Below are positions 4,024 to 21,913 of a stretch of 47,551 nt of DNA, piece after piece. The notes beneath the pieces are model-generated. The model did no database searches. It had not been told where the DNA came from and was given only the letters and a program-made list of their open reading frames with translations. The stretch's first letter is position 1; each line of letters opens with the position of its first letter. The DNA comes from Streptomyces flaveolus (GTDB lineage: Bacteria; Actinomycetota; Actinomycetes; Streptomycetales; Streptomycetaceae). Position numbers and translations under genes: made by a program. Location: NCBI RefSeq assembly GCF_000716535.1, contig NZ_JNWV01000052.1, forward strand, positions 1 to 47,551. The letters run 5' to 3'.

Positions 4024-6533
4024 TGTGGCGCCTGGCACTGCGCACCCTGAAGTTCCGCAGGACGAGCTTCGTCGCGACCTTCCTCGCCATGTTCCTCGGC
4101 GCCGCGATCGTCATCGGCTGCGGCGGCCTGATGGAGACGGGCGTCCGCATGGCGGCCGAACCCCAGCGCCTGAACGGCGCACCGGTCGTCGTCACCGGAG
4201 AGCAGACCTACGACTTCACCGCCCTGACCGAACGTCACCGCATCGACCCCGGCCTCGTCGGCGAGGTCGCCCGGGTCCAGGGTGTCCGCACGGCCGTCGG
4301 CGACGTGTCGGTCCCGGCCACCGTCCTCAAGGACGGCAAGCCGGTGACCGGCAAGTCCGCCTCGTACGGCCACGGCTGGGCCTCCGCCCGGCTCACCCCC
4401 TATACCCTCGCCGCCGGTAAAACCCCCGTCGCCGGCGGCGAGGTCGTCCTCGACGCGGACCTCGCCCGGCGCGCCGGCGCGCGCCCGGGGTCCGACGTCG
4501 ACATCGTCGTCCAGGGCACCGTCCGGCGGTTCCAGGTCAGCGGCATCGCCGAACAGCGCGGCGACCGCGACCCCGACGCCGCCGTGTTCTTCACGGACGA
4601 CGAGGCCCGCACCCTCGCCGGGGGCCGGATCGACTCCATCGGCGTGCTGCCCGCCCCCGGCACACGGACCGCCGCGGTCGCTGACGCGGTGCGCGCCGAG
4701 GTCGGCGACCGTGCCGAGGTGCTGACCGGGGAACGCCGGGGACTGGCCGAACTGCCCGGCACCCTCTCCAGCAAGCGCACCGTCGTCATCCTCGCGGCCG
4801 TCTTCGGTTCCTCCGTCGTCCTCATCGTGATGTTCGGCGTCGCGTCCACCCTCGGCCTCTCCCTCCAGCAGCGCGCCCGAGAGATGGCCCTGCTGCGCGC
4901 CGTCGGCTCCACCCCGCAGCAGCTCCGCCGCATGATCCTCACCGAGACGGCCGTGCTCTCCGTGGGCTCCGTCCTGCTCGCGCTGCTGCCCGGCTACGCC
5001 ATCGGACGCCTGCTGTTCGGGGTGCTGACCGCGAGCGGCGTGGTGTCGTCGGCGATCGTCTACCACGCCGGATGGATCCCGATGGCCGTCGGCGCCGTCG
5101 TCACCGTGCTCGCCGCGGCCGGCGCCACCCGCTTCGCCGGACGGCGCGCCGCCCGCACCGAACCGGTCGCCGCACTGGCCGAATCCACCGCAGGCACCCG
5201 CTGGTTCAGCGTCCCCCGGCTGCTGCTCGCGCTGTTCTTCCTGGCCAACGGCATCGGCCTGGCCGTCGCCACCGCCACCGTGATGGAGGACGGCCCCACG
5301 CTCGCCAGCACCGCCGGTCCCGCCTCCGTGCTGTTCTGCATCGGCCTCGCCCTGCTCGCCCCCGGCATCACCAAGGTCATGGTGGCGCTGCTCCGCCTGC
5401 CGGTCCGGGCCTTCTCCGGGCTCTCGGGTCAGCTCGCGCTGCGCAACGCCGCCACCGCCAACGTCCGCATGGCGGGCGCGGTCGCGCCGATCGTCCTGCT
5501 CATCGGCATCGCCACCGGCACCCTGTACATGCAGTCCACCGAGGACCACGTCTCCCGGACCTCCTACGACCGCAACATCCTCGCCGACTACGTCCTCGAC
5601 TCCACGACGGGCGGATTCGCGCCCGGTGTCGTCGACCGGGTGCGTGCCACGCCCGGGGTGGCCGCGGCCTCCGAGTTCGTCACCAGCCGCGGCTTCGTGG
5701 ACCGGACCGGCGACCCGGACCAGGTCGACCTGCGCGGGGTCTCCGCCGACGGCGTGCGGCAGAGCCTCGATCTGCCCGTCGTCGCCGGGTCCCTCACCGG
5801 CCTGCGCGGCGACACCGTGGCCCTGTCCGACAAGAAGGCCCGGGAGTACGGCGTGAAGGTCGGCGACCGGCTGCCGATGCACCTCGGGGACGGCACCGCC
5901 GTACGCCCCACCGTCGTGGCCCTCTACACCGACAACCCCAAACAGGAGTACCTGACGCTGCCCGCGGCCACCCTCGCCCCGCACACCGGTGACGGGCTGC
6001 CGCACCAGATCCTCGTCCGCAGTGCGCGCGGCGGCGGCGCCGACGTCCACGAACGCCTCGCCGCGCTGGCCGCCCGGGTGCCCGGCACCGAACTGGACGA
6101 CAGCTCCTCGCTGGCCGGCCGGAACAACCAGATCCAGCAGATCCTGGTGTCCGCCAACTACACCATCGTCGCCATGATCGTCGGGTACGCCGCGATCACC
6201 GTCGTCAACACCCTGGTGTCCGTCACCCGGAAACGGCGCCCGGAGTTCGGCCTCCAGCGGCTCACCGGCGCGACCCGCGCCCAGGTGCTGGGCATGCTGA
6301 GCGTCGAGGGCCTGCTGATCGGCGTCGTCGCCACCGTCCTCGGCACCGTCGCCTCCGCGACGACCATCGTCCCCTACAGCCTCGTCAAGAGCGACTCCTA
6401 CCTGCCCTCCGGATCCATCGGCATCTACCTCGCCATCGTCGGCGGCTCGCTGCTGCTGGTGTTCGGCGCCACGCTGCTGCCGTCCTGGCGCGGAATGCGC
6501 AGCCCCGCCGTGGAAACGGTGAAGGCCGCGTGA
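4023..6533 (+). CDS. ABC transporter permease, FtsX family
   Basis: An 836-residue membrane protein with two repeated FtsX-like halves. One N-terminal segment (about 13-36) precedes a large extracellular domain, then three segments around residues 255-370, then further segments near 400-500, a second large extracellular domain, and a final group of three ending near residue 825; about ten segments in all. This is the usual layout of the long actinobacterial permease paired with a MacB/LolD-type ATPase. Such pairs typically export or expel lipophilic compounds and peptides, or sense cell-envelope damage. It is coupled to the ATPase at the start, and a hairpin separates it from the kinase gene that follows. 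Confidence 0.93.
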   Translation: MWRLALRTLKFRRTSFVATFLAMFLGAAIVIGCGGLMETGVRMAAEPQRLNGAPVVVTGEQTYDFTALTERHRIDPGLVGEVARVQGVRTAVGDVSVPATVLKDGKPVTGKSASYGHGWASARLTPYTLAAGKTPVAGGEVVLDADLARRAGARPGSDVDIVVQGTVRRFQVSGIAEQRGDRDPDAAVFFTDDEARTLAGGRIDSIGVLPAPGTRTAAVADAVRAEVGDRAEVLTGERRGLAELPGTLSSKRTVVILAAVFGSSVVLIVMFGVASTLGLSLQQRAREMALLRAVGSTPQQLRRMILTETAVLSVGSVLLALLPGYAIGRLLFGVLTASGVVSSAIVYHAGWIPMAVGAVVTVLAAAGATRFAGRRAARTEPVAALAESTAGTRWFSVPRLLLALFFLANGIGLAVATATVMEDGPTLASTAGPASVLFCIGLALLAPGITKVMVALLRLPVRAFSGLSGQLALRNAATANVRMAGAVAPIVLLIGIATGTLYMQSTEDHVSRTSYDRNILADYVLDSTTGGFAPGVVDRVRATPGVAAASEFVTSRGFVDRTGDPDQVDLRGVSADGVRQSLDLPVVAGSLTGLRGDTVALSDKKAREYGVKVGDRLPMHLGDGTAVRPTVVALYTDNPKQEYLTLPAATLAPHTGDGLPHQILVRSARGGGADVHERLAALAARVPGTELDDSSSLAGRNNQIQQILVSANYTIVAMIVGYAAITVVNTLVSVTRKRRPEFGLQRLTGATRAQVLGMLSVEGLLIGVVATVLGTVASATTIVPYSLVKSDSYLPSGSIGIYLAIVGGSLLLVFGATLLPSWRGMRSPAVETVKAA

Positions 6534-6547
6534 GTCACCCCCTGGCC

Positions 6548-6582
6548 GGGCCGTCCCCGCTTCCCCCGAGCGGGGGCGGCCC
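6548..6582 (+). terminator. Hairpin between permease and histidine kinase genes
   Basis: Arms 6548-6560 and 6570-6582 pair over 13 bp with one G-U pair and a 9-base loop. No U-tract follows. It could be a partial terminator or processing site that lowers kinase expression relative to the exporter. It falls within the possible N-terminal extension of the kinase, which favours the later start at 6620. Confidence 0.5.
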
Positions 6583-6619
6583 CTCAGTGACGGACGGCCG
6601 GGGATGGGAACATGACGAC

Positions 6620-7918
6620 ATGAAGACTGTGCCGGTCACGTGGCGCGGCCGACTCGCCCGCGCCACCCTGGACACCCTGGTCGGCGTGGCCATCGCCTCC
6701 GGAGCGCTGGTGTCGATCGTCCTCTTCGTCACCACCACCTACTTCATCGTCCTCTGCCTCATCGGCATCGGCTTCCTCGCGCTGCCCTACCTGACCCGGG
6801 CCGTGCGGTGGCTGTGCGACCTCAACCGGCGGGCCGCGGCGCGCTCCGGCATCCCGGTGGAGCGGCCCTACCGGCCCGAGCCGGAGGAGATCGAGAGGGA
6901 CATCGTCGGCTGGACGCGGCGCTGCAAGTGGATCCTCGCCGACCCCGCGACCTGGCGGGACCTGCTGTGGCTGCTCCTCAACTGCGTCGTCGGCCTCGCC
7001 GGCTTCGTCCCGGCCGCGCTGCTCTACTACGCGGGGGAGGGGCTGTTCCTCGCCTGCGGCCTGTGGCAGCCCCTCGCGGACGACGGACACGGCCGCTGGT
7101 ACTCCTTCGTCACCGTCGAGAGCTGGCCGGCCGCGCTCGCCGCGGCCCTGCTCGCGCTCGTCGTGCTCACCGCCTGGATCCTCCTCGGCCCGCTGGTGCT
7201 CAAGGGCTACGCCTACTTCGTCCGCTTCCTGCTCGGCCCCACCCGCCAGTCCCAACTGGCCTCCCGGGTCCAGCACCTGTCCGAGACCCGCTCCGGCGCC
7301 CTCGACATCCAGGCCGCCGAACTGCGCCGCATCGAACGCGACCTGCACGACGGCGCCCAGGCCCGGCTCGTCAGCCTCGGCCTGCAACTGGGCGCCGTGG
7401 ACCGGAAGATGAGCCAGGACCCGGAGGAGGCCCGGCGGCTGCTGCGGCAGGCCCGCACCTCCTCGGTGCAGGCCCTGCGCGAACTGCGCGACCTGGTCCA
7501 CGGCATCCACCCGCCGGTCCTCGCCGAGCGGGGTCTGCCCGACGCCCTGCGCGCCCTGGGCCTGGCCAGCCCGCTCCACGTCACCGTGGTGGTGGACCTG
7601 CCGGACAGACTGCCCGACCCGGTCGAGTCCGCCGTGTACTTCGCGGTGTCCGAGCTGCTCACCAACGCCCTCAAGCACGCCGAGGCGCAGCGCGTGGAGA
7701 TCGTCGCCTGGTGCGAGGAGGGCATGCTGCACGCCCGGGTCACCGACGACGGCCGCGGCGGCGCCGACGCGTCGGCCGGGAGCGGCCTCGCGGGCATCCG
7801 GCGGCGGCTGGCATCCTTTGACGGGGTCCTGGAGATCGACAGTCCACCGGGCGGTCCGACCGTGATGAAGATGGAGTTGCCGTGCGCGTTGTCCTCGCCG
7901 AAGACCTCTTCCTCCTGA
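6620..7918 (+). CDS. Sensor histidine kinase (NarL-type, HisKA_3)
   Basis: A 432-residue kinase. The N-terminal half holds about four membrane segments, including VGVAIASGALVSIVLF, FIVLCLIGIGFLAL and two more near residues 120-200. A HisKA_3 box follows (RRIERDLHDGAQ, phospho-accepting His243), then an HATPase_c domain with LLTNALKHAE (N box) and DDGRGG and GSGLAGIRRRL glycine motifs. I prefer the ATG at 6620 because the alternative GTG at 6530 would run coding sequence through a strong hairpin. The gene overlaps the response regulator by 37 bp. The signal is unknown; next to an ABC exporter it probably senses the exported compound or envelope stress. Confidence 0.92.
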   Translation: MKTVPVTWRGRLARATLDTLVGVAIASGALVSIVLFVTTTYFIVLCLIGIGFLALPYLTRAVRWLCDLNRRAAARSGIPVERPYRPEPEEIERDIVGWTRRCKWILADPATWRDLLWLLLNCVVGLAGFVPAALLYYAGEGLFLACGLWQPLADDGHGRWYSFVTVESWPAALAAALLALVVLTAWILLGPLVLKGYAYFVRFLLGPTRQSQLASRVQHLSETRSGALDIQAAELRRIERDLHDGAQARLVSLGLQLGAVDRKMSQDPEEARRLLRQARTSSVQALRELRDLVHGIHPPVLAERGLPDALRALGLASPLHVTVVVDLPDRLPDPVESAVYFAVSELLTNALKHAEAQRVEIVAWCEEGMLHARVTDDGRGGADASAGSGLAGIRRRLASFDGVLEIDSPPGGPTVMKMELPCALSSPKTSSS

Positions 7919-13172: not shown

Positions 13173-13218
13173 ACGCTAGGCAGCCACGGCCGGGGTCCCA
13201 ACCCCTAGACGCCCCTAG
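13173..13218 (-). promoter_or_regulatory. Shared-type promoter of the P450/ferredoxin operon
   Basis: On the minus strand CTAGGGG (13218-13212) and CTAGGGG (13208-13202) form an exact direct repeat with 10-bp period, and 23 bp further lies TAGCGT (13178-13173) as the -10. The first copy is also part of the palindrome CCCCTAGGGG (13212-13221). The repeats would sit at about -36 to -52, the place of an activator site overlapping -35. The same 46-bp layout occurs at 8535, 21733 and 30171. Confidence 0.7.
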
Positions 13219-13276
13219 GGGCCGCTGCCACGCCCCCCGGGCCGGCCCGTAGGCCGTCCGCCGCGCGGAGAGCCCG

Positions 13277-14533
13277 TCACCACCGCACGGTCAGCCGCCT
13301 CGGTGACCGGAAGCCGCGGCCTGTCACGCCGTCGGTGTCCAAGGCGAGGCCCGGGTGCCACGGGGTCGCGGTGGCCTCCAGCAGGGCGTCGAGGAGTTCT
13401 TCCGCCTCCAGGGCGGCGAGATGCCGGCCCAGGCAGATGTGCGGGCCGGTGCCGAGGGCCAGGTGCGGCCGCGGCTCCCGGTGGGGGTCGAACCGGTCGG
13501 CGCGGTCCCACCGCCGCTCGTCCCGGTTGGCGGACGCCAGGTTCACGCAGACCAGGTCGCCGCGGCGCAGCCGCTCACCGCACAGCTCGGTGTCCGCGGC
13601 GCACCGGCGCAGCACCCACGTCAGCGGGCACTCCCACCGCCAGCACTCCTGGACGACGGCGGGGGCCAGGGAGGCGTCCCGGCGCACGGCGTCCGAAACC
13701 GCCCGTTCGCCGAGGACGACGTACATCAAGGTGGCGAGGGAACGGAACGGGGGCTCCGTGCCGGTGGAGAGCAACAGGCGCACCACGGGCAGCAGTTCGG
13801 GCCCGGTGCCCAACGCCGGGTCGTCGTGGCGCAGCAGCAGTCCCACGACGCTGTCCGGCGGCCAGGCCGACGGTGTGCCGAGCCATTCCGCCAGCCCGGT
13901 GGCGATCTTCCCGTCGGCGTCGTCGAGCAGTCCGACCGCCCAGGTGTACAGGGTGCCGACGCGGGTTCCGGGCGGGAAGCCCACCATGTCCGCGATCGTC
14001 GTGAGCGCCAGCGGGAAGGCGACCTCGGAGACCAGGTCGCCGCCGCCCTCGCGGGCGAGGTGCCGCAGCCGGTCCGCGACGGCCCGGCGGATCCGGGCCC
14101 GCCGGCCCGAGACGGCCTGCCGGTGGAAGGCGCCGTGGAGGACGCTCCGCCACACCCGGTGCTCGTGCCCGTCCATCTGGAGGAACGACCGTCCCACCAC
14201 CCGGCCCATGTTGTCGTCGTACGCGGAGGACGAGAAGACGTGCTCGTCGCGCAGGACCTGCTCGGCGGCCTCGTACGTCACCACATGCCAGGCGGCGACC
14301 GGCTCCGCACCGGATCCGTCCGCTCCGTTTCCGTCCGCCCCGGTGAACACCCGCTCCAGTGTGGACCGGTGCACCCCACCGCGCCGGCGCAGGGCCGCGA
14401 ACTCGGCGTGCGGATCACCGGCCCCGGGCCCCCGGCCGTCCGCGTCGAAGGCGCGGACCCGCGCGTACGCCTCGGCGATGTCCTCCTCGACGCCTCCGGG
14501 TCCGACGGCGAGGACGGGCGGCACGGCCGTCAT
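13277..14533 (-). CDS. Divergent cytochrome P450 in the RiPP-like operon
   Basis: A 418-residue P450 unlike the tandem pair. The haem loop is LALGTGPHICLG (Cys367) and the ExxR motif is in QECWRWE. The I-helix reads STGTEPP, so the usual acid-threonine pair and the AGxxT pattern are altered. The ATG overlaps the stop of the GNAT gene (ATGA), making it the last gene of the seven-gene minus-strand operon. Its position suggests that it acts on the peptide rather than on the polyketide, for example on the single tyrosine of the precursor, but that is inference. A role on the macrolactam remains possible. Confidence 0.88.
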   Translation of the reverse strand: MTAVPPVLAVGPGGVEEDIAEAYARVRAFDADGRGPGAGDPHAEFAALRRRGGVHRSTLERVFTGADGNGADGSGAEPVAAWHVVTYEAAEQVLRDEHVFSSSAYDDNMGRVVGRSFLQMDGHEHRVWRSVLHGAFHRQAVSGRRARIRRAVADRLRHLAREGGGDLVSEVAFPLALTTIADMVGFPPGTRVGTLYTWAVGLLDDADGKIATGLAEWLGTPSAWPPDSVVGLLLRHDDPALGTGPELLPVVRLLLSTGTEPPFRSLATLMYVVLGERAVSDAVRRDASLAPAVVQECWRWECPLTWVLRRCAADTELCGERLRRGDLVCVNLASANRDERRWDRADRFDPHREPRPHLALGTGPHICLGRHLAALEAEELLDALLEATATPWHPGLALDTDGVTGRGFRSPRRLTVRW

Positions 14534-15126
14534 GAGGTCCGGTCCCGGGAGAGGCGGGCCGCGCCGTCGGCACCGTCGGCCTCCCCGAGGTGGCGTACGG
14601 CCGTGCAGAGCCGCTGCTCCGCCGGGCGGCGCAGCCGGTTCCCGAGGGTGTCGGACGGTTCCGCCTCCGGCGCGTGGATCTCGAAGCCCAGAGCGGTCAG
14701 GAACGCCAGGCCCGGCTCCCAGCTCTCCGGGCAGGTCGCGGTGACACGCCGGATCCCCCGGGCCGCGGCCTCCCGCAACAGCAGCCGTGCCGCATGTGTG
14801 CCGAGTCCCCGCCGGCGGGCCCGCGGGGTGAGCAGGAAGAGCCCCAGCGAGCAGGTGTCCGGCTCGGGATGGTCCTGGACGGCGTCGACCAGGCCCACCA
14901 GGGCGTCCTCGTGGACCAGCACCAGCAGGTGTTTCTGCTCGAACTCCGCTCCCTCCGGCAGGGAGTAGTACAGGCTCTGCACGTCCGCGGGCATGGCCGT
15001 GGCGCCGGTGGCGCTGACGAGGTAGTCGTCGCAGGCGCTCAGCACCCGTGCCGCGTCGGCCTCGTCCTCGGGCCGCAGGGCCCGGACGGTCAGCCGGTCC
15101 GGTCCCGTGATCAGGATCTCCTCCAC
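14530..15126 (-). CDS. GNAT-family N-acetyltransferase
   Basis: A 198-residue protein with the GNAT fold. The central strand LVGLVDAVQDHP is followed by the acetyl-CoA loop RARRRGLGTHAARLL (about 102-116), and ESWEPGLAFLTALGFEI gives the typical C-terminal part. A basic, charged tail of about 45 residues follows. The GTG start is 3 bp after the stop of the B12 radical SAM gene, and its stop overlaps the P450 start. In a peptide operon it could acetylate the modified peptide or provide self-resistance; both are inference. Confidence 0.85.
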   Translation of the reverse strand: MEEILITGPDRLTVRALRPEDEADAARVLSACDDYLVSATGATAMPADVQSLYYSLPEGAEFEQKHLLVLVHEDALVGLVDAVQDHPEPDTCSLGLFLLTPRARRRGLGTHAARLLLREAAARGIRRVTATCPESWEPGLAFLTALGFEIHAPEAEPSDTLGNRLRRPAEQRLCTAVRHLGEADGADGAARLSRDRTS

Positions 15127-15129
15127 TGC

Positions 15130-17490
15130 TCACACCACCTGTTCCTCGATCGCGTGCACGGCCCGTGAGGATACGGCGGCGCTGTCGCCGCGGTACAGGA
15201 ACCCGTAGCGCGCCAGCGCGTCGCTGACGTCCGGGCTCGTCGTCGGCTCCTCGCCGCTCGACCAACGCCGCCAGGTGTCGACGGCCGAGCCGCGCAGCCG
15301 GACCGTCACCCCGGTGACGGGGTTGGTGAGGCAGTGGACGCCGTCACGGCTGTCCACCGCGATGCCGATCTCGGCGCGGAGCCTGCCGCCCGACGACCCC
15401 GGACGCCGCCGGGTGGGCACCAGGAACCCGTGGCGCACGAGGAGCGCCGCCGTGGCGGCCGTGTCCGCCCCCAGGTAGTGGCACGCGTGTTGGGCCAACC
15501 ACGCCTCCAGCTCACGCCACGTCAGGCCGTCCGTCTCGGTCCAGTCCGCCTCCCGGCAGTTGAGCTGGAGGAACCTGTCGTGCACCGGCTGGTAGAGCGC
15601 CACCGCCGGCGCGGTGTCCGTCTCGGTGGCCGGCCAGGGAACCCGCGCGAATGTCACCTCGGGTGCCAGCCTCAGCGGGGCGTCCGGTTCCGGCGGCGGC
15701 CAGTCGAACAGCGGGACGGAGGGCGTCCCGGGCGGTGGGGCCGCCACACAGGCCCGCAGGAAGGTGAACTCCTCGATCTCCCGGGCCAGTGGATCGCGCG
15801 CGGCACGGAACCAGACGTTCGTGTCGCTGACGGAGCCCGCCGCCGTCTCGGCGACCCGCGCACTGTCCTCCTGGGACATCCCGGCGCCCACCGTGTAGTT
15901 CCGCCACAGGCTCAAGTCGTCGTCTGGATCGGGGGGTTGGACGCGGACGCCGAAGGCGTCGGGGTCCGTACCCACGGGCGAGTGCACGTCGAGAACGAAC
16001 GGGGACCCGCCCCACGTCGTGTGCGGGACGCCGTAGGTGTCCGCCGACAGGCGGCGCACCGCCTCGGCGAACGCCACCGTCCGCGCCGCCTCCTCGGCCG
16101 TCTCCCCGGGGAAGCCGTGGATGACGAAGAGGTGGAGGGGGACGCCCGCACCGAGCATGGCCTCGATGTTCCCGCAGGCGTCCTCGATCCTGGTGCCCTT
16201 GCGCATGAGGTCGAGGACGCGCTGACTGGCCGTTTCCAGGCCGAAGTTCATCCGGCGGCAGCCCGAGTCGTACAGCAGCCGGGCCAGTTCCTCGTCCAGG
16301 CCGCGCGCGAACCGGGTCTCGCCGTACCAGCGGATGTCCGCGGACGTCCGGACCAGCGCCTCGGCGACGCTCCGCAGCGTCCGCAGGCTCATGATCTCGT
16401 CCACGAACATGAAGTAGGGGCTGCCGAATTCGGCCCGCAGCGCCCGGATCTCATCGGCCACCGCCTCGGCGGGACGCTGCCGGAAGGAGTTGCTGGCGAA
16501 GGGGATCGAACAGAAGGCGCACTCCCAAGGGCAGCTGCGGGAGGCGAAGACGGGCAGGACCGGGCCGGGGGCGAGGTACTTGTGCAGGGGCAGGTCGCCG
16601 TAGGCGGGCGGGGCGGCGGCGGAGATGTCGGCGCTCTGCCGCGGGGTGCGCCGCAGGATGCCGTGGTCGTCCCAGACGGCGCCCGGGATCTCCTCCCGGA
16701 AGTCGCCCGCGCCGGCGCGGTGCCCGTCCAGTGCGTCGACGACGGCCGCGAGGGCGCCCTCGCCCTCGCCCGTCACCACGGTGTCGACGAGGTCGAACAG
16801 CGGGTGCCGGCGGTCCCAGCGGTCCACCAGCCGGGTCGCGTAGTTCCCGCCCAGGACCACATGGACGTCCGGCCGTGCCTCCCGGAGCATGTGCAGGAAC
16901 GTGACCCCGGCGACGAGCTGGGTGTCGGCGGACATGCTCAGCCCGACGACCCCGACGGACGGATCGAGGAAGAGAGCGCGGTCGAGCATGCGGTCGAATG
17001 CCCAGCGGTACGGGTTGCCGTCCGGGTCGGTGGCCGCGGCCAGCACCTGCGCCGTGGAATCGGCGGAGTACCGGGAGGTGTTCGAGACCAGGTCGAACTC
17101 GCAGTCCGGGAACGCCCCGGAGATCAGCCACAGGGCGTCGCGCAGGGTGCGCCGCGCGGCGTGGAACAGTTCGGGCTCCCGCAGCGTGTCCGGCGACTTC
17201 CAGCGCGCCTTCGCCTCCTCGACGCCGGCGATCGCGGACGGCGCGACCAGCAGCGCCCGCTGCCGTGCCCACTCGTCGCGCAGGCCGGCCGTCCGGCGCC
17301 GGCGCGCCTTGTCCCGCAGCTCGGTCAGGGCGGCCGGCGACAGCATCCAGTCGACGCACTCGATGCTCAGGTCGTAGGCGACGGCCTCGTACCCGCGTGC
17401 CCTGAGGTCGCCCAGGAGCAGCGGGACGGCCAGGTGCGGGGCGTAGGCGTTCCACAGGGGCGGGTTCACCAGGACGGTCTTCTTCCGCAT
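15130..17490 (-). CDS. B12-binding-domain radical SAM enzyme
   Basis: A 786-residue enzyme. The N-terminus (about 1-280) has the look of a cobalamin-binding Rossmann domain (VLVNPPLWNAYAPHLAVPLL; VGVVGLSMSADTQLV; HVVLGGNYATRL). The radical SAM core begins with CxxxCxxC in SRSCPWECAFCS (Cys320, 324, 327) and includes MNFGLETASQRVLDLM and FVIHGFPGET. A long C-terminal region (about 550-786) has no motif I recognise and may bind the peptide. Members of this class include RiPP C-methyltransferases and other B12-dependent enzymes. GGGGAAG precedes the ATG. It follows the putative precursor after a 153-bp gap with strong hairpins. Confidence 0.9.
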   Translation of the reverse strand: MRKKTVLVNPPLWNAYAPHLAVPLLLGDLRARGYEAVAYDLSIECVDWMLSPAALTELRDKARRRRTAGLRDEWARQRALLVAPSAIAGVEEAKARWKSPDTLREPELFHAARRTLRDALWLISGAFPDCEFDLVSNTSRYSADSTAQVLAAATDPDGNPYRWAFDRMLDRALFLDPSVGVVGLSMSADTQLVAGVTFLHMLREARPDVHVVLGGNYATRLVDRWDRRHPLFDLVDTVVTGEGEGALAAVVDALDGHRAGAGDFREEIPGAVWDDHGILRRTPRQSADISAAAPPAYGDLPLHKYLAPGPVLPVFASRSCPWECAFCSIPFASNSFRQRPAEAVADEIRALRAEFGSPYFMFVDEIMSLRTLRSVAEALVRTSADIRWYGETRFARGLDEELARLLYDSGCRRMNFGLETASQRVLDLMRKGTRIEDACGNIEAMLGAGVPLHLFVIHGFPGETAEEAARTVAFAEAVRRLSADTYGVPHTTWGGSPFVLDVHSPVGTDPDAFGVRVQPPDPDDDLSLWRNYTVGAGMSQEDSARVAETAAGSVSDTNVWFRAARDPLAREIEEFTFLRACVAAPPPGTPSVPLFDWPPPEPDAPLRLAPEVTFARVPWPATETDTAPAVALYQPVHDRFLQLNCREADWTETDGLTWRELEAWLAQHACHYLGADTAATAALLVRHGFLVPTRRRPGSSGGRLRAEIGIAVDSRDGVHCLTNPVTGVTVRLRGSAVDTWRRWSSGEEPTTSPDVSDALARYGFLYRGDSAAVSSRAVHAIEEQVV

Positions 17491-17504
17491 CTTCTTCCCC
17501 GTCG

Positions 17505-17567
17505 GTCCTGGGGTCCGGGCGGCTGTGCCGTTCCCCTTCTGTCCTGAGGACCGGGCGGCTGTGCCGT
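17505..17567. repeat. Two 27-bp direct repeats with 36-bp period
   Basis: Units 17505-17531 and 17541-17567 share 25 of 27 bases; each ends in CCGGGCGGCTGTGCCGT. They lie in the leader of the B12 radical SAM gene, between it and the hairpins behind the precursor gene. A period divisible by three recalls coding DNA, but no plausible protein runs through here. Confidence 0.6.
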
Positions 17568-17584
17568 CCGCCTCCGGTCCCGGA

Positions 17585-17623
17585 GCCGGCCGGCACCCGG
17601 GCCGTACCCGGGTGCCGGCCGGC
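17585..17623. promoter_or_regulatory. Strong hairpin downstream of the precursor gene
   Basis: Arms 17585-17601 and 17607-17623 pair perfectly over 17 bp with a 5-base loop. It follows the precursor stop in the direction of transcription. It could stabilise the 3' end of a short precursor transcript or partly stop transcription before the enzyme genes, giving more peptide than enzyme. Confidence 0.6.
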
Positions 17624-17624
17624 G

Positions 17625-17646
17625 TGACACCGGACGTCCGGTGTCA
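17625..17646. promoter_or_regulatory. 22-bp perfect palindrome over the precursor stop codon
   Basis: The centre is CCGGACGTCCGG and the outer bases are TGACA and TGTCA. The minus-strand TGA at 17646-17644 is the stop codon of the precursor gene. With the hairpin at 17585-17623 it makes a tandem pair of structures directly behind the gene. It is either an RNA hairpin or a protein-binding site. Confidence 0.6.
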
Positions 17647-17832
17647 CTGCCGGCCCTCCTCCTCCGTCTGCGGCGCGGCGTCGGACGTGTCCGGGCGCCT
17701 GGCCTTCATCGACGGCAGCAGGGCGTACTGCGCGCCGGTACGCACTTCCGGCTGCACCACCTCCACAGCGGGGCCCTCACCGGTCGCGCCGGCGGCGGCC
17801 ATGAGCTGCTCCAGGTCCGTCTTCTTCGTCAT
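17644..17832 (-). CDS. Putative RiPP precursor peptide (62 aa)
   Basis: A 62-residue peptide, charged and hydrophilic, with an N-terminal Met-Thr-Lys-Lys and leader-like LEQLMAAAGATGEG (7-20). It contains no Cys, Trp, Phe, His or Asn and a single Tyr (36) in TGAQYALLPSMKARRPD (32-48), followed by an acidic tail. The ATG overlaps the stop of the PqqD-like gene (ATGA), and GGAGGTGA 5 bases upstream is one of the best ribosome sites in the window. The setting, between a PqqD-like protein and two radical SAM genes, is that of a RiPP precursor. I recognise no known precursor family, and the cleavage site and core are unknown. The YALLPSMK segment is my guess for the modified part. Confidence 0.7.
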   Translation of the reverse strand: MTKKTDLEQLMAAAGATGEGPAVEVVQPEVRTGAQYALLPSMKARRPDTSDAAPQTEEEGRQ

Positions 17833-18203
17833 GGGTTCACCTCCCTCCCGTCCAGGGGCCGAATCGGCCGGGTCACGTCGACCAGCCCGCCGTCCACGAG
17901 CTGGTCCATGGCCGACTCGAACGCCTCCTTGAGTTCCGGTTCACCGATCCGGCCTTTGTCGAGTTCCTTGAACGCGGCGTAGATCTGCGATCCGGACGAT
18001 CCGTCGCACAGCTCGACAACCACCCAGGCCACGGGGTTGAGGTAGTGGATGGCGGGCTTGTGCGGGGTGTAGGCGATCATGCAGTTCCACTCCGGGATCG
18101 GGCGGAACCTGGCCGAGGAGCTCTTCTCAAAGCAGTCGGCTCGTCGCCGGTACGGCGGGGCGGACACGGCGCTCGTCAAGGTCGTCGGGGAGCTGGGAGA
18201 CAT
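17829..18203 (-). CDS. PqqD-like RiPP recognition protein
   Basis: A 124-residue protein. After about 25 variable residues comes a PqqD-like fold pattern: FRPIPEWNCMIAYTP, then HYLNPVAWVVVELCDG (the usual position of the NxxAxxIxxLxDG motif of PqqD proteins) and the helical FESAMDQLVDGGLVDV near the end. PqqD-type proteins bind the leader peptide and bring it to the radical SAM enzyme. The ATG at 18203 follows GGAGGGA and lies 77 bp inside the end of the SPASM gene. Its stop overlaps the precursor start, so recognition protein and peptide are made together. Confidence 0.85.
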   Translation of the reverse strand: MSPSSPTTLTSAVSAPPYRRRADCFEKSSSARFRPIPEWNCMIAYTPHKPAIHYLNPVAWVVVELCDGSSGSQIYAAFKELDKGRIGEPELKEAFESAMDQLVDGGLVDVTRPIRPLDGREVNP

Positions 18204-19167
18204 CGGTCCCTCCGTTCGTCTCGGTGCAAAACGGGTCGGGGGCGTCCCAGCGGCCGGTGAAGGCATAGGCCGTGGACCGGCACCCGCCGGAGGAGCCCTG
18301 TGTCTCCTCGCAGCCGTCGCAGCCCCCGTCGACGTGGCCGGCGCGGTTGCGCACGTACACCGGGTCGTTCCAGGTGTCCAGGAAGCTGACCTCGCGGACG
18401 TTGCCGTAGTCGGCGTAGTCCCGCAGGTAGGCGCAGCCGACGGAGCGGCCGGTGGCGTCCACACCGGCGTTCTGCCAGCAGCAGTTGCCGTCCTTGGGAT
18501 GCCACGACGTCATCAGGTGCACGGACTCGGGCACCCGCAGGGCGTCCAGCGCCGCCATCTGGTCCGGCAGGCGCAGCGCGAGGTCCTTCCAGTGGGTGCG
18601 GGCCCGGCCCAGGGGGTACAGCCGCAGCACGCCGACGCGGGGCACGCGCAGCTCGGCGGCCATGTCGAGCACCTGCTGGAGTTCCGCCACGTTGCGCCGG
18701 GTCATGATGACAAGGAGGGACACGGGGAGCCCGGCAGCCTGGGCGTTCCTCAGACCCTCGATCGTCCGGTCGAAGCTGCCCGGCACCCTGACGTGCCAGT
18801 CGTGCGTGGCGGCCGTCGCCCCCATGACGTCGACGTACACCTCGCCGACGCCGATTTCTTTGAGCCGGCGGGCGACCTCGGGGGTCAGCAGCGTCGCGTT
18901 GGTGCGCAGACGCGTCATCACGTGCGGGGTCAGTTCGGCCAGCACGTCCAGGGTGTCGGGCCGGTTGAGGGGCTCCCCGCCCTCCACGAACACCTCGATG
19001 AGCCCTGAGTCGGCCATCTCGCGGATGAGGGCGGCGAATTCGGCCCGGCTGAGTTCGTCCCCGCGCGGCCGGGCGTCGCAGTCGCCGTAGCACTGGCGGC
19101 ACTCGAGGTTGCACGACTGGGTGACTTGCAGCCAGCTCTTGAGGGGCTGATGCAGCACGAGTTCCAT
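18127..19167 (-). CDS. Radical SAM/SPASM peptide-modifying enzyme
   Basis: A 346-residue enzyme. The SAM cluster motif is CNLECRQC (Cys19, 23, 26), followed by the glycine-rich FVEGGEPLNRPD. A SPASM-type C-terminus has Cys residues in GNCCW, VGCAYLRD, GGCDGCEE, GGCRS and DPFC, enough for one or two extra iron-sulfur clusters. SPASM enzymes with a PqqD-like partner commonly make C-C or thioether crosslinks, or oxidise residues, in precursor peptides. With no cysteine in the putative precursor, sactionine chemistry is unlikely there. The ATG follows GGAG. The gene lies second in the operon, directly before the recognition protein. Confidence 0.92.
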   Translation of the reverse strand: MELVLHQPLKSWLQVTQSCNLECRQCYGDCDARPRGDELSRAEFAALIREMADSGLIEVFVEGGEPLNRPDTLDVLAELTPHVMTRLRTNATLLTPEVARRLKEIGVGEVYVDVMGATAATHDWHVRVPGSFDRTIEGLRNAQAAGLPVSLLVIMTRRNVAELQQVLDMAAELRVPRVGVLRLYPLGRARTHWKDLALRLPDQMAALDALRVPESVHLMTSWHPKDGNCCWQNAGVDATGRSVGCAYLRDYADYGNVREVSFLDTWNDPVYVRNRAGHVDGGCDGCEETQGSSGGCRSTAYAFTGRWDAPDPFCTETNGGTDVSQLPDDLDERRVRPAVPATSRLL

Positions 19168-19267
19168 GGGTCTCCGTCCTGGTCGGCACGGTGGCGAGGC
19201 GTCGGGCGCGCGGTCGTGCGCCCTTGGCAGGGGTGTGCCGGCAGAGTGACCTGACGGCCTTGCCCGG

Positions 19268-20350
19268 TTACGACGGCAGGCGCGTGCCGGTGGCCGCCGG
19301 GGCCGGGGCGGTTCTCCGCCCGTGCTCCCGCGCCAGCCAGCCCAGGAAGTCCATGCCGGCCGGACCGAGACAGGCCTCCGCCCGCCGGGCGACCTTGTCG
19401 AGCAGGCTGGCGGCCCGGAAGGCGGCCGTCTCCGCGGACCGCGCGAGATCGGGGTCCGGACAGACACGGGCCCGCTCCTCGAACCACGCGGACAGGTGCA
19501 CGTACACGTGGGCGGCGGCGAGGGCCCGGTCGACGGGCCAGCGCGGGACCGGCGAGTGCCGGTGCCACTCCGGTGACACGGTGGGCGCGGTCGCGGTGTC
19601 GTAGTCCGGCGCGAACACCGACCGGGTCATCTGCAGGTCGTACAGCCGCAGGTGCACGAACTCGTGCACCAGCGCCTCGGCGAACCGCTCGGGGGTGCGC
19701 ATGCAGCGCCGCGCGACGAACGCCACGCCCGGGATCTCGCGGGTGGAGGCGCTGTCGAACGCGTCGGGGCCGTCGACGGCGACGACGTACCGGGCGTGCC
19801 GGAACAGCCCCGTGCACAGGTCCGGTGCGGTGTCGAGCATCAGCCGTACGGCGTCGCGGGCGTTCGCGGTCTCCTCGGGGCCGAGCGGGGCGAGGTGGTC
19901 CGCGCCCTCACCGGCGCTCAGGTGCCGGCGGAAGAGCGCGGAGAAGTCCTGGTGGGTCCGCGCGGGCAGCGCCGGGTCGGTGAGGAGTTCCACGCGGGCG
20001 CCGGGGGCCTCGATCACGTGCCGGACCCCGGCTCGCTCCGCCTCCGCGGCGAGTGTCGCCCGCTGAGCGGAATACTTCGTGGAGCCGAGTCTGTGCGCGA
20101 GGACGGCCAGTTCGTCCCGGCAGTCCTCGGTGCGCCGGATGCGTCGCACGGCCTGGTCCAGGCCGTGTCTGACGGTGGGTTCGAGGGCGGTGTCGCGAGC
20201 GATCCGGCGTCCGTCCGGCGCGGCGGGCCAGGAATCGGGGGCGACGCACTCCAAGAGGAAATCGTACGTCTCGTATAACCGGTCGAGAATGCTGGCGGCA
20301 TCGGCGAAGACGGGATGCCGGGCCAGCGTCACAATACTGGGCTGTCGCAT
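19268..20350 (-). CDS. HExxH-motif protein, putative peptide-modifying enzyme
   Basis: A 360-residue protein with the motif HEFVH (His229, Glu230, His233) in VHEFVHLRLYD, preceded by a segment EIPGVAFVARRCM. The context and length match the HExxH proteins found beside radical SAM genes in RiPP loci, a family for which iron/2-oxoglutarate-dependent peptide beta-hydroxylation has been reported; a metalloprotease is the alternative. It is the first gene of the operon. I prefer the ATG at 20350; an in-frame codon at 20416 would extend it by 22 residues over the promoter region. I cannot assign the third metal ligand from sequence alone. Confidence 0.78.
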   Translation of the reverse strand: MRQPSIVTLARHPVFADAASILDRLYETYDFLLECVAPDSWPAAPDGRRIARDTALEPTVRHGLDQAVRRIRRTEDCRDELAVLAHRLGSTKYSAQRATLAAEAERAGVRHVIEAPGARVELLTDPALPARTHQDFSALFRRHLSAGEGADHLAPLGPEETANARDAVRLMLDTAPDLCTGLFRHARYVVAVDGPDAFDSASTREIPGVAFVARRCMRTPERFAEALVHEFVHLRLYDLQMTRSVFAPDYDTATAPTVSPEWHRHSPVPRWPVDRALAAAHVYVHLSAWFEERARVCPDPDLARSAETAAFRAASLLDKVARRAEACLGPAGMDFLGWLAREHGRRTAPAPAATGTRLPS

Positions 20351-20397
20351 GCCGGTGTCCCTGCTCGAATGCAGACTCTGTGACGTGGCGCTCAACG

Positions 20398-20427
20398 AAT
20401 GTGGCACGCACGGCAATTGGGTGTCAA
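20398..20427 (-). promoter_or_regulatory. Likely promoter of the RiPP-like operon
   Basis: On the minus strand a perfect TTGACA (20427-20422) is followed after 18 bp by CACATT (20403-20398), about 48 bp before the ATG at 20350. It carries no CTAGGGG-type repeat, unlike the polyketide promoters. The -10 is weak. The rest of 20351-20529 shows no gene I can support. Confidence 0.45.
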
Positions 20428-20529
20428 CCGTTGTTCGCGACCGCGGCTCCTTTTCATCGGTGGCCGGGGAAAGAAAGCATAAAGTCGGTTCGGTGTACGT
20501 GGATTCGGCGGTGGACCGGGTACCGGGGC

Positions 20530-21505
20530 ATGGCGTGCTGTGCCCTTCGCCTCGTTCGCCTTCGCACAGCGCCGCTCGGCCGGCTGGTCGCCGCCGACGC
20601 GATCAGCTCCGTGGGCGACGGCGTGCGGTGCGCGGCCTGGCTCCTCCCACCCCTCGTCAACCCCTGATCGTGGCGGGTGCGCTGCGCGGTGCCATAGCTG
20701 TTGTGCGCGTACATGGTGGCCGGGCGGGTGCCCCTGCCGGTGCTCGTACTGCTCGCCTTCCTCACCGGCGTCGCCGAGGTCTTCTTCGACAGCGCGGCCC
20801 AGGCGATCGTGCCGTCCCCGGCCGCGGACCGGGAGCTGGAACGGGCCAACGCCCGGATCGTCGCCGCGCAGATCACCGGCACCGGCTTCCTGGGCCAGCC
20901 GGCGGGTGCCGCGCCGTGGGCGGTGTGGCAGCCGCTTCCGTTCGCGGTGGACGCGGTGTCGTTCCTCGGCTCGGGCTGCTGCTCACTGGGTTGCCCGCGC
21001 GGCGAGCGGAGGGACGGAGCGCCGAGGACGCGTGCTCGTGGTGTACGTCGAGCGACGCCTCGGCCTGCCGGCCCACGGCTACAGACTGCTGCTCGTGGCG
21101 GCGGCCGTCGGCAGCCTGGCGGGGGCCAGGGTGGCCGCCCTGGACGGCGGCACGGCTGGGCACCGGACGCAGCCTGGTGGTGTCGGTGGCCGTCTCGGCG
21201 CTCGGTTGCCTGGCCGTCGCGGTGGTGCCCCGGTGGCCGCTGGTGCCACTGATGCCGGCCGTCGACAGCACCGGTGCGGTGCTGTCGACGGCCGGCATGC
21301 TGGGCCGGATCACCGGCGGCTACGCGTCGCTGCGTGGGGGGCCACGGCGCTGGGCGGCGTCCTGATCGAGGACACTGCTGTCCCGACCCGACACCCCCCG
21401 GGCCCCGGCCGGTCTCCTTCTCCTGGGATGCCGTCCGCTCCTGCGGAGAATGCCGTCCACCCCGCCGGAACCGCCGGCCGAGCGCGCGGCAGACGCAAAG
21501 GATGA
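20530..21505 (+). pseudogene. Decayed MFS transporter
   Basis: Pieces of an MFS drug-exporter protein appear in order but in different frames. GRLVAADAISSVGDGVR (from about 20572) runs into a stop at 20667. LLAFLTGVAEVFFDSAAQAI and ELERANARIVAAQITG follow in another frame from about 20750, then YRLLLVAAAVGSLAG and SLVVSVAVSALGCLAV in further frames, and a last ALGGVLIEDT-like piece near 21360. The spacing between the pieces is too short for an intact 400-residue transporter, so there are deletions as well as frameshifts. It was probably an exporter or resistance gene of this cluster, now replaced, perhaps by the ABC exporter at 3220. Confidence 0.75.
21252..21298. repeat. 22-bp perfect inverted repeat inside the MFS pseudogene
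   Basis: Arms 21252-21273 and 21277-21298 are perfect complements with a 3-base loop (GTG); the arms contain GGCCGTCGACAGCACC. Such a long perfect palindrome is unexpected in coding DNA and suggests a local inverted duplication or a later-formed terminator. Confidence 0.7.
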
Positions 21506-21913
21506 CGCAAAGGCGGACGACCGGACGGGGGGACAGTCCTTTACTTGATTTCCCGACCTCTTCGAAATCTCCGCAACCTGCCGGAATTCGCGCACGCGGG
21601 TCCCGGAAAACCTCCGGCTGCCGTATTATCCTTCGCGCTTTCATGCGCGGCCGTGCATTCCTCTCTTCGGCTCCCTGCGTCACCCCCTGCCTGCCACGAC
21701 CCCTAGGTGCCGCCCTCCCGGCCGGACCCCGCCTAGGGGCGGTTAGGGGTCTGGCGGCGGCGCGGCGGCGGTTAGCGTCGGCTGCGGAACACGGGCAGAG
21801 GCACGGCGGACCGGACGGGGGCACGGATCCCCACCGCCCCGGCCTCCCCGGTCCCGGCCGGCGTCCCGTCCCCGGCCGCCGCCGCGTCCCGCAGCCGAGC
21901 AGAGGTGATCAGC
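21506..21913 (+). other. 408-bp intergenic region before the starter cassette
   Basis: No gene is supported here. The part 21540-21680 is noticeably richer in A and T than its surroundings. From 21700 on it carries the shared promoter element and an extra in-phase CTAGGTG at 21703-21709, exactly 30 bp (three periods) upstream of the first heptamer. Confidence 0.6.
21733..21778 (+). promoter_or_regulatory. Shared-type promoter of the starter-unit cassette
   Basis: CTAGGGG (21733-21739) and TTAGGGG (21743-21749) stand in direct repeat with 10-bp period, then 23 bp lead to TAGCGT (21773-21778), identical to the -10 of the P450 operon promoter. Transcription should begin near 21785, about 130 bp before the first gene. 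Confidence 0.7.

Follow-up and report, generated by a model that had tools for sequence, protein, structure and literature searches.

What is a set of peptide-modifying genes doing in the middle of a polyketide cluster? The question is raised by a 47,551-nucleotide stretch of Streptomyces flaveolus DNA (NZ_JNWV01000052.1, assembly GCF_000716535.1; hereafter the window), which is the whole of one contig (C52) of a 10.3-Mb genome. Seven minus-strand genes spanning positions 20350 to 13277 encode, in order, an HExxH protein, a radical S-adenosylmethionine (rSAM)/SPASM enzyme, a PqqD-like protein, a 62-amino acid peptide, a B12-type rSAM protein, a GNAT acetyltransferase and a cytochrome P450, and parts of a vicenistatin-type macrolactam cluster flank them on both sides. 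An initial annotation proposed that these genes direct the synthesis of a ribosomally synthesized and post-translationally modified peptide (RiPP), or else of a hybrid in which peptide and macrolactam are co-produced. We consider it quite probable that they are a self-contained RiPP operon, inserted between the gene for a VinJ-like amidohydrolase and a pair of P450 genes and standing outside macrolactam assembly. The gene set, its conservation, the folds predicted for the RiPP recognition element (RRE) and HExxH proteins, the insertion and the separability of the operon form the basis of this reading; from them we infer binding, step order, the residues modified, export and the product.

A search of the protein database with the 62-amino acid open reading frame (ORF) gave 18 homologues at E<=0.01. 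When the window peptide was aligned with all 18, 20 of the 22 positions in residues 21-42 were invariant across the 19 sequences, compared with 4 of the 20 leader positions and none of the 20 tail positions. Within this block the proportion of synonymous differences (pS) between the window and four Streptomyces operons is 0.22-0.55, and that of nonsynonymous differences (pN) is 0-0.02. Because pS is well above pN, selection acts on the protein; this low pN and the 18 homologues together indicate that the ORF is more than a chance frame. The modified stretch had been placed at residues 32-48, a position that we replaced, on per-position invariance, with the near-invariant block at 21-42; residues 43-62 vary. 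The block contains neither Cys nor Phe, and Tyr36 is its sole aromatic residue. L7, L10, M11 and A14 of the leader are invariant in all 19 sequences, and the stretch that they mark is a plausible RRE-binding site. A divergent peptide from genome G310, outside the 19, retains 17 of the 22 block positions (PAVETVQPEIRSAAQYALMPSM).

The initial annotation had taken absence or poor conservation of the 62-amino acid ORF in related operons as the sign that its RiPP proposal was wrong. The ORF was found, and is conserved, in 6/6 related operons whose sequence covers its place (L006, L007, L008, L014, L021 and L063), and in those six it accompanies the RRE-fold protein, the SPASM enzyme and the alpha-ketoglutarate-dependent (aKG)-HExxH protein. 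The RiPP proposal is thus supported by a conserved precursor, predicted RRE, SPASM enzyme and aKG-HExxH protein that recur together.

ORF and family scans also bore out the seven minus-strand genes with the order, overlaps and catalytic motifs first described for them. With the best start chosen for each ORF (Table 1), the SPASM/PqqD-like, PqqD-like/peptide and GNAT/P450 junctions overlap, and gaps of 100 nt follow the HExxH gene, 153 nt follow the peptide gene and 3 nt precede the GNAT gene. A longer B12-rSAM protein beginning at the peptide stop, which the open frames of L006 and L007 permit, was rejected, as the window GTG overlapping that stop opens a different frame. The CxxxCxxC motifs of both rSAM proteins, the HExxH motif and the P450 Cys are all present and conserved among relatives. 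Pfam cutoffs were exceeded for Radical_SAM (both enzymes), SPASM, GNAT and P450; the PqqD and B12-binding families scored below theirs (17.9 vs 23.4 and 26.1 vs 32.1, respectively). Among the curated families shown, a cutoff was reached for TIGR04267 only, against which the HExxH protein scores 51.8 (cutoff 40), placing it with the aKG-HExxH proteins.

Structure prediction points the same way for two of the proteins. The HExxH model, built from 24 rows (the window and 23 of 24 matches), has a predicted local distance difference test score (pLDDT) of 86.8, and its only Foldseek matches in the PDB at E<=1e-3 are four chains of the ChlH HExxH domain (8s5f) and SjiH (22ob). The HExxH motif, H281 and H285 are invariant in eight aligned proteins, and the motif is present in 7/7 of another alignment. 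The PqqD-like model (9-row alignment, pLDDT 74.8) has as its top Foldseek matches the TbiB1 RRE with leader peptide, PqqD and the PbtF RRE, each with probability 1.00 at a best E of 1.2e-3 (none at E<=1e-3). We therefore assign this protein a predicted RRE fold, which would bind the leader.

Table 1. Features of the operon and its immediate surroundings (window positions)
Feature	Position	Strand	Basis
aKG-HExxH-type peptide beta-hydroxylase, 360 aa, HEFVH at residues 229-233	19268..20350	-	TIGR04267, model, Foldseek
rSAM/SPASM enzyme, 346 aa	18127..19167	-	Pfam Radical_SAM and SPASM above cutoff
Stand-alone RRE (PqqD-like), 124 aa, GGAGG ribosome site	17829..18203	-	Model and Foldseek; Pfam PqqD below cutoff
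Precursor peptide, 62 aa: leader 1-20, conserved block 21-42, variable tail 43-62	17644..17832	-	Homologues, alignment, pS/pN
Near-invariant block PAVEVVQPEVRTGAQYALLPSM, proposed core	17707..17772	-	20/22 positions invariant, 19 sequences
18-bp hairpin between precursor and B12-rSAM genes, proposed attenuator/3' stabiliser	17585..17623	-	Stem kept in 6/6 loci
B12-type rSAM protein, 786 aa, C-terminal extension past the radical SAM domain	15130..17490	-	Radical_SAM Pfam, 68.9 bits
GNAT N-acetyltransferase, 198 aa	14530..15126	-	PF00583, 42.0 bits, above cutoff
Cytochrome P450, 418 aa, Cys ligand C367	13277..14533	-	PF00067, 57.1 bits, above cutoff
MFS transporter pseudogene, pieces in three frames, divergent from HExxH	20557..21323	+	tblastn
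Inserted segment, approximate ends, vs VinJ-P450 spacer of G110	13220..21696	.	blastn

The SPASM enzyme retains the rSAM cysteines C19, C23 and C26 and the SPASM-region cysteines C229, C230, C245, C283, C286, C296 and C314 in 7/7 aligned proteins, and its nearest solved sequence is PqqE (6c8v, 57.8 bits). PqqD/E and MftB/C are the maturation partners for pyrroloquinoline quinone (PQQ) and mycofactocin, both of which derive from a Tyr-containing peptide. This raises the alternative, which we regard as rather unlikely, that the product is a fixed small molecule excised from the peptide, cofactor- or signal-like, rather than a modified peptide of usual length, with the block serving as template and enzyme contacts and Tyr36 as the reactive residue. 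The single aromatic residue and lack of Cys in the block would suit such a product, as would the matches of the SPASM enzyme to the maturases of mycofactocin and PQQ, which extend along most of the protein. The scores are nevertheless far below the maturase cutoffs (TIGR03962, 121.2 vs 265; TIGR02109, 100.2 vs 381.35), and the best NCBIfam scores come from the heme-pathway AhbD and NirJ models, followed by mycofactocin and others, each shown below its cutoff. Conservation can be read both ways. Between the window and a Pseudonocardiales metagenome-assembled genome (MAG; G763), 21 of 22 block residues are identical and the enzymes are 39-67% identical, so that the block exceeds every enzyme; against G310, the values are 77% for the block, 59% for the SPASM enzyme, 45% for the B12-rSAM protein, 42% for GNAT and 31% for the HExxH protein. 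A block that stays nearly invariant across two orders while its enzymes diverge favors a fixed small molecule, whereas 22 conserved residues seem to exceed what a template needs. The rarity and patchiness of the operon (the peptide is credible in 3/392 genus genomes, the source genome included) are unlike those of a cofactor pathway, and in relatives an exporter of the major facilitator superfamily (MFS) adjoins it.

The operon recurs as a unit in other genomes. A search with the SPASM enzyme, covering one genome per species, returned eight loci. Three of these, all from Streptomyces (L006, L007 and L008), carry all seven genes in the same order, with peptides 81-85% identical to that of the window; one, from the Pseudonocardiales MAG (L009), carries the HExxH, SPASM and PqqD-like genes up to its contig end; and four (one Roseomonas, three Elioraea) matched for SPASM and PqqD-like only, on contigs that are 5.6 and 7.4 kb long in two cases. 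Elsewhere in G763, a 3.7-Mb assembly that may be incomplete, the peptide gene begins another contig (L063, the G763 locus among the six peptide-bearing operons) and is followed by B12-rSAM (58%), GNAT (45%) and P450 (38%) genes. The two G763 contigs together give the seven-gene order outside Streptomyces, and G763 alone matched the peptide convincingly among 249 genomes of its order; five weak matches there (E 0.001-0.009, inside 340-864-aa frames) were treated as noise. Within the genus, the HExxH search matched 4/295 genomes including the window's own, namely G150 (whole operon, L014), G145 (a remnant) and G072 (32%, in another context). The peptide-alignment search matched 4/392, including its own, G150, G310 and a doubtful G331, whose match (E 7.3e-4) was rejected, with no operon gene in the 5 kb fetched around it; across the class the same search matched 1/394, the source genome only. 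The complete operon thus recurs in four other Streptomyces (L006, L007, L008 and L014), and the G310 copy (L021) has the order HExxH, SPASM, PqqD-like, peptide, B12-rSAM, MFS, GNAT.

In the protein database, among 7997 candidates scored, 24 HExxH homologues reached E<=1e-20, the nearest named one being a 99% identical protein of Streptomyces flaveolus. Several database homologues of the peptide and HExxH proteins come from contigs of equal length (563497, 606066, 79825, 36312, 91807 and 10658170) and so probably lie together, with context read for L007 only. In 17 genomes searched for the B12-rSAM protein, strong matches (E<=1e-190) occurred only in the seven operon-bearing genomes. More distant relatives, 41-43% identical, are encoded in a different cluster in G254, G180 and G028, and were rejected as operon kin: searching the 18 kb fetched for each gave no match to SPASM, RRE, HExxH or the peptide. 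In that cluster (L071, L072 and L073; B12-rSAM 40-42% identical to the window's) an ABC ATPase match occurs at all three loci, and L072 and L073 each have one further, weaker match to B12-rSAM. A plasmid home was likewise set aside: one plasmid record at E<=1e-30, from Microvirga, has a 48% identical SPASM relative next to xanthine dehydrogenase genes, with no other operon gene among 11 annotated features. The SPASM enzymes of that plasmid (L061) and of the Roseomonas and Elioraea loci (L010, L011, L012 and L013) are 45-54% identical to the window's; those of L010-L013 are paired with an RRE-like gene, and the other operon genes gave no match there. In G072 (L016, 14651-16052) a distant HExxH protein (29%) adjoins a PqqD-like protein near a large, nonribosomal peptide synthetase-like ORF with two AMP-ligase matches; SPASM gave no match in this 17-kb contig.

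The operon also carries a conserved RNA element. A hairpin of 14-18 bp (-32 to -45 kcal/mol) follows the precursor gene in 6/6 loci (the window, L006, L007, L008, L014 and L063), 17-94 nt upstream of the next start codon. In L008 and L014 both arms have changed with pairing preserved, and the L063 stem is wholly different in sequence from the others. The 156-nt window spacer folds better than 200/200 shuffles (z -6.0). The element fits partial termination or mRNA protection, either of which would yield more peptide than enzyme.

To place the operon relative to the macrolactam genes, we compared its surroundings with those of related clusters. We apply the names VinJ and VinK by analogy (Pfam gave a VinK_C match), and VinJ is described as an amidohydrolase in PMC11284099. 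To the left of the operon lie the polyketide synthase (PKS) end with its thioesterase, an ABC/FtsX transporter, a sensor kinase, a type II thioesterase and a P450; to the right lie the amidohydrolase, the VinK-type acyltransferase, a pair of AMP-ligases, methylaspartate mutase and PKS genes. When 392 genomes of the genus were searched with VinK, 35 matched at E<=1e-110; identity is 84% or more in 13, the source genome among them. Of the other 12, the VinJ-P450 spacer was read in eight (G110, G254, G362, G377, G016, G180, G028 and G051) and in G145, with G101, G354 and G071 outside the comparison. In 8/8 macrolactam relatives the amidohydrolase and the two P450 genes are neighbors with none of the seven operon genes between them (tblastn, E<=1e-4, at least 33% identity), and in seven the gap is below 0.75 kb. 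The same spacer in G180 (L058) holds an unrelated insert of ~5 kb with ORFs that resemble, by eye, short-chain dehydrogenase, HTH, TetR and methyltransferase genes. The spacer may be a repeated landing site. Relative to G110 (VinK 97% identical), the window matches at 95% up to ~13219 and resumes at ~21697, and the ~8.5 kb between has no counterpart; G110's own sequence at the site is ~400 nt and partly common to G254.

The converse comparison gave the same picture. Six other genomes carry the operon, its divergent form included (G150, G310, G763, G1012, G1013 and G1014). Five lack a VinK match at E<=1e-20, and the remaining one has a 32% match on another contig. Since eight of eight clusters read lack the operon and the operon genomes lack a close VinK, operon and macrolactam are separate traits that share one locus here. 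By these sequence comparisons the inserted operon can be separated from the macrolactam cluster, in which it is a passenger. The location between the P450 genes and the starter cassette had made it reasonable to suppose that the operon has a part in tailoring the macrolactam or in making a peptide-macrolactam hybrid, the second proposal of the initial annotation. This is now very improbable: retention of the operon with the macrolactam cluster was seen in 0/8 relatives, even in G110 with its closely similar VinK, and the G145 cluster keeps only remnants. Two macrolactam papers were searched by term; one contains neither 'radical SAM' nor 'RiPP', and the other contains 'radical SAM' twice, the passage shown being a reference to glutamate 2,3-aminomutase.

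Two side observations concern the edges of the operon. Repeats of the CCCCTAGG type occur at 13201-13219 and 21697-21715, at both insertion edges, and also at the empty G110 site; they are possibly regulator-binding sites. In G150 (L014), an IS110-like transposase gene, so identified by eye, lies beyond the MFS gene (6239-7504), and a 76% identical remnant (17283-17823) stands directly after the P450 stop (17281). Together they frame the operon and are a possible candidate carrier.

Whether the window copy still makes a product depends partly on its exporter. L006, L007, L008 and L014 have an MFS gene next to the HExxH gene and divergent from it, and L021 has one inside the operon; these genes belong to a single family, with 68-80% pairwise identity. 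L009 has a 42% relative ~7 kb from its HExxH gene. Where these relatives have an open gene, the window retains only pieces, which by tblastn share 47-70% identity with the MFS proteins of L006, L008 and L021. Neither these pieces nor the hairpin figured in the initial annotation. G145 holds a related insertion, with the MFS frame open (L015, 14251-13145, minus strand) and biosynthesis reduced: HExxH residues 148-245 are fused to P450 residues 317-418, with ~6 kb gone. A SPASM search of G145 was empty at E<=1e-20, which by itself shows little, and the B12-rSAM protein likewise found no match there at E<=1e-60; the P450 pair of the G145 macrolactam matches on another contig. In the three pieces compared, this remnant is the closest copy by DNA (88.6, 81.2 and 86.8%, vs 74-87% for other operons), which suits one shared insertion. 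G110, which is closer by VinK, lacks the insertion, so that a single-insertion view must assume loss or exchange there. An exporter that outlasts its biosynthetic genes is what would be expected of an immunity gene.

Several observations weigh against the reading of a working RiPP operon. The window MFS gene is frameshifted and shortened, so the operon may be silent or reliant on another exporter. The window B12-rSAM gene is slightly more divergent than that of L014, which does not hold for the other five enzyme and RRE genes. The B12-rSAM protein scores below the cutoffs for RiPP C-methyltransferases (TIGR03975, 115.7 vs 281.85) and for the B12-binding Pfam family; no protease is encoded among the seven genes; and the 19.5 kb fetched around the G310 copy contains nothing that matches the operon P450, which means that not all steps are indispensable. 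For an antibiotic RiPP it is, moreover, unusual that the core is conserved more strongly than the enzymes. The damaged exporter, together with the biosynthetic genes lost from the related insertion in G145, could indicate that in this strain the operon is decaying as a passenger and that nothing is made. We think this improbable, as the seven biosynthetic ORFs are open and five of six genes show no excess protein divergence relative to L014. Across the six enzyme and RRE genes, dN/dS is 0.12-0.66 in all window pairs and 0.13-0.56 among relatives; because the window values resemble those of other pairs, these genes look maintained.

A self-contained RiPP operon invites comparison with known systems. 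The operon resembles PQQ and mycofactocin pathways in its stand-alone RRE, SPASM enzyme and conserved-block Tyr, and differs in falling below the family cutoffs, in its four further modifying enzymes and in its precursor. Aminopyruvatide (apy) biosynthesis, which we take to combine a P450 and an rSAM protein in one RiPP cluster, is less similar in detail: the window P450 and B12-rSAM proteins match ApyO and ApyD weakly (45.5 vs a cutoff of 525 and 86.7 vs 750 bits, respectively), and the window operon has no match to a multinuclear nonheme iron-dependent oxidase (MNIO). As far as the accessible parts of their descriptions go (PMC12257519 and PMC12707348), the biphenomycin clusters (bpm/bip/pbs) share an RRE-type partner and a B12-rSAM protein, together with an aKG-HExxH protein in bpm/bip and an MFS protein in pbs. 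Their MNIO, arginase, JmjC hydroxylase and TldD protease were not found here, where a SPASM rSAM enzyme, GNAT and P450 occur instead, and the window precursor lacks an FRF-type motif. The available text of PMC12257519 defines the biphenomycin type by an MNIO and an FRF-type core; the seven proteins gave no MNIO family match, and the block has no Phe. The pfl/pos RiPPs (PflC/PosC), in the part of PMC12636437 at hand, likewise have an aKG-HExxH enzyme acting on a ribosomal peptide, and GNAT is discussed. They differ in an MNIO-nitroreductase and a poly-Gln/ARMD substrate, and that part of the description contains no SPASM, B12-rSAM or P450 protein. ChlB/ChlH-type cyclophane synthases (8s5f; PMC12636437, same portion) also bring an rSAM and an aKG-HExxH activity to one peptide; here the two are separate proteins, and among the 25 of 71 families shown there is no FxsB-type model for the SPASM enzyme. 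No described RiPP with this enzyme set, and none of three peptide strings, was found among the papers listed by the literature searches, whose coverage leaves out most subscription journals; besides unrelated work, those listings contained only the clusters named here.

A possible route to the product follows from these assignments. The 62-amino acid peptide would be the precursor, and the RRE protein would bind its N-terminal leader (LxxLMxxA) and present residues 21-42. Because gene order is conserved, all the enzymes are taken to be involved. The SPASM enzyme would act first, introducing a C-C or C-O link or an oxidation at or near Tyr36, and the B12-rSAM protein would C-methylate. HEXXH relatives act on Gln (with backbone cleavage), His and Asp, according to the available part of PMC12636437; since known relatives hydroxylate these residues, Gln27 and Gln35 are our best guesses for beta-hydroxylation by the HExxH enzyme. 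The P450, whose C367 and I-helix STGTEPP(F/Y)R are kept in 6/6 proteins (window STGTEPPF at 13742-13768, minus strand), may oxidise or cross-link. Its I-helix carries Pro at the position usually held by the Thr that activates oxygen, a substitution that hints at chemistry other than plain hydroxylation. GNAT may acetylate a freed amine or a new hydroxyl, a host protease encoded elsewhere would cut off leader and tail, and the MFS protein would export the product in relatives.

The operon represents a real, conserved and apparently undescribed RiPP operon family. We suggest only tentatively, and think it less likely than not to hold in full, that up to five chemistries on the 22-residue block yield a fixed, non-diversifying signal- or cofactor-like product of a new actinobacterial class, encoded by a cassette that moves between genomes. 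With a core so unusually constrained, a precise target or role is to be expected of the product. More generally, a gene set found inside a polyketide cluster may be a passenger, and the two pathways can be told apart by examining related clusters without it.

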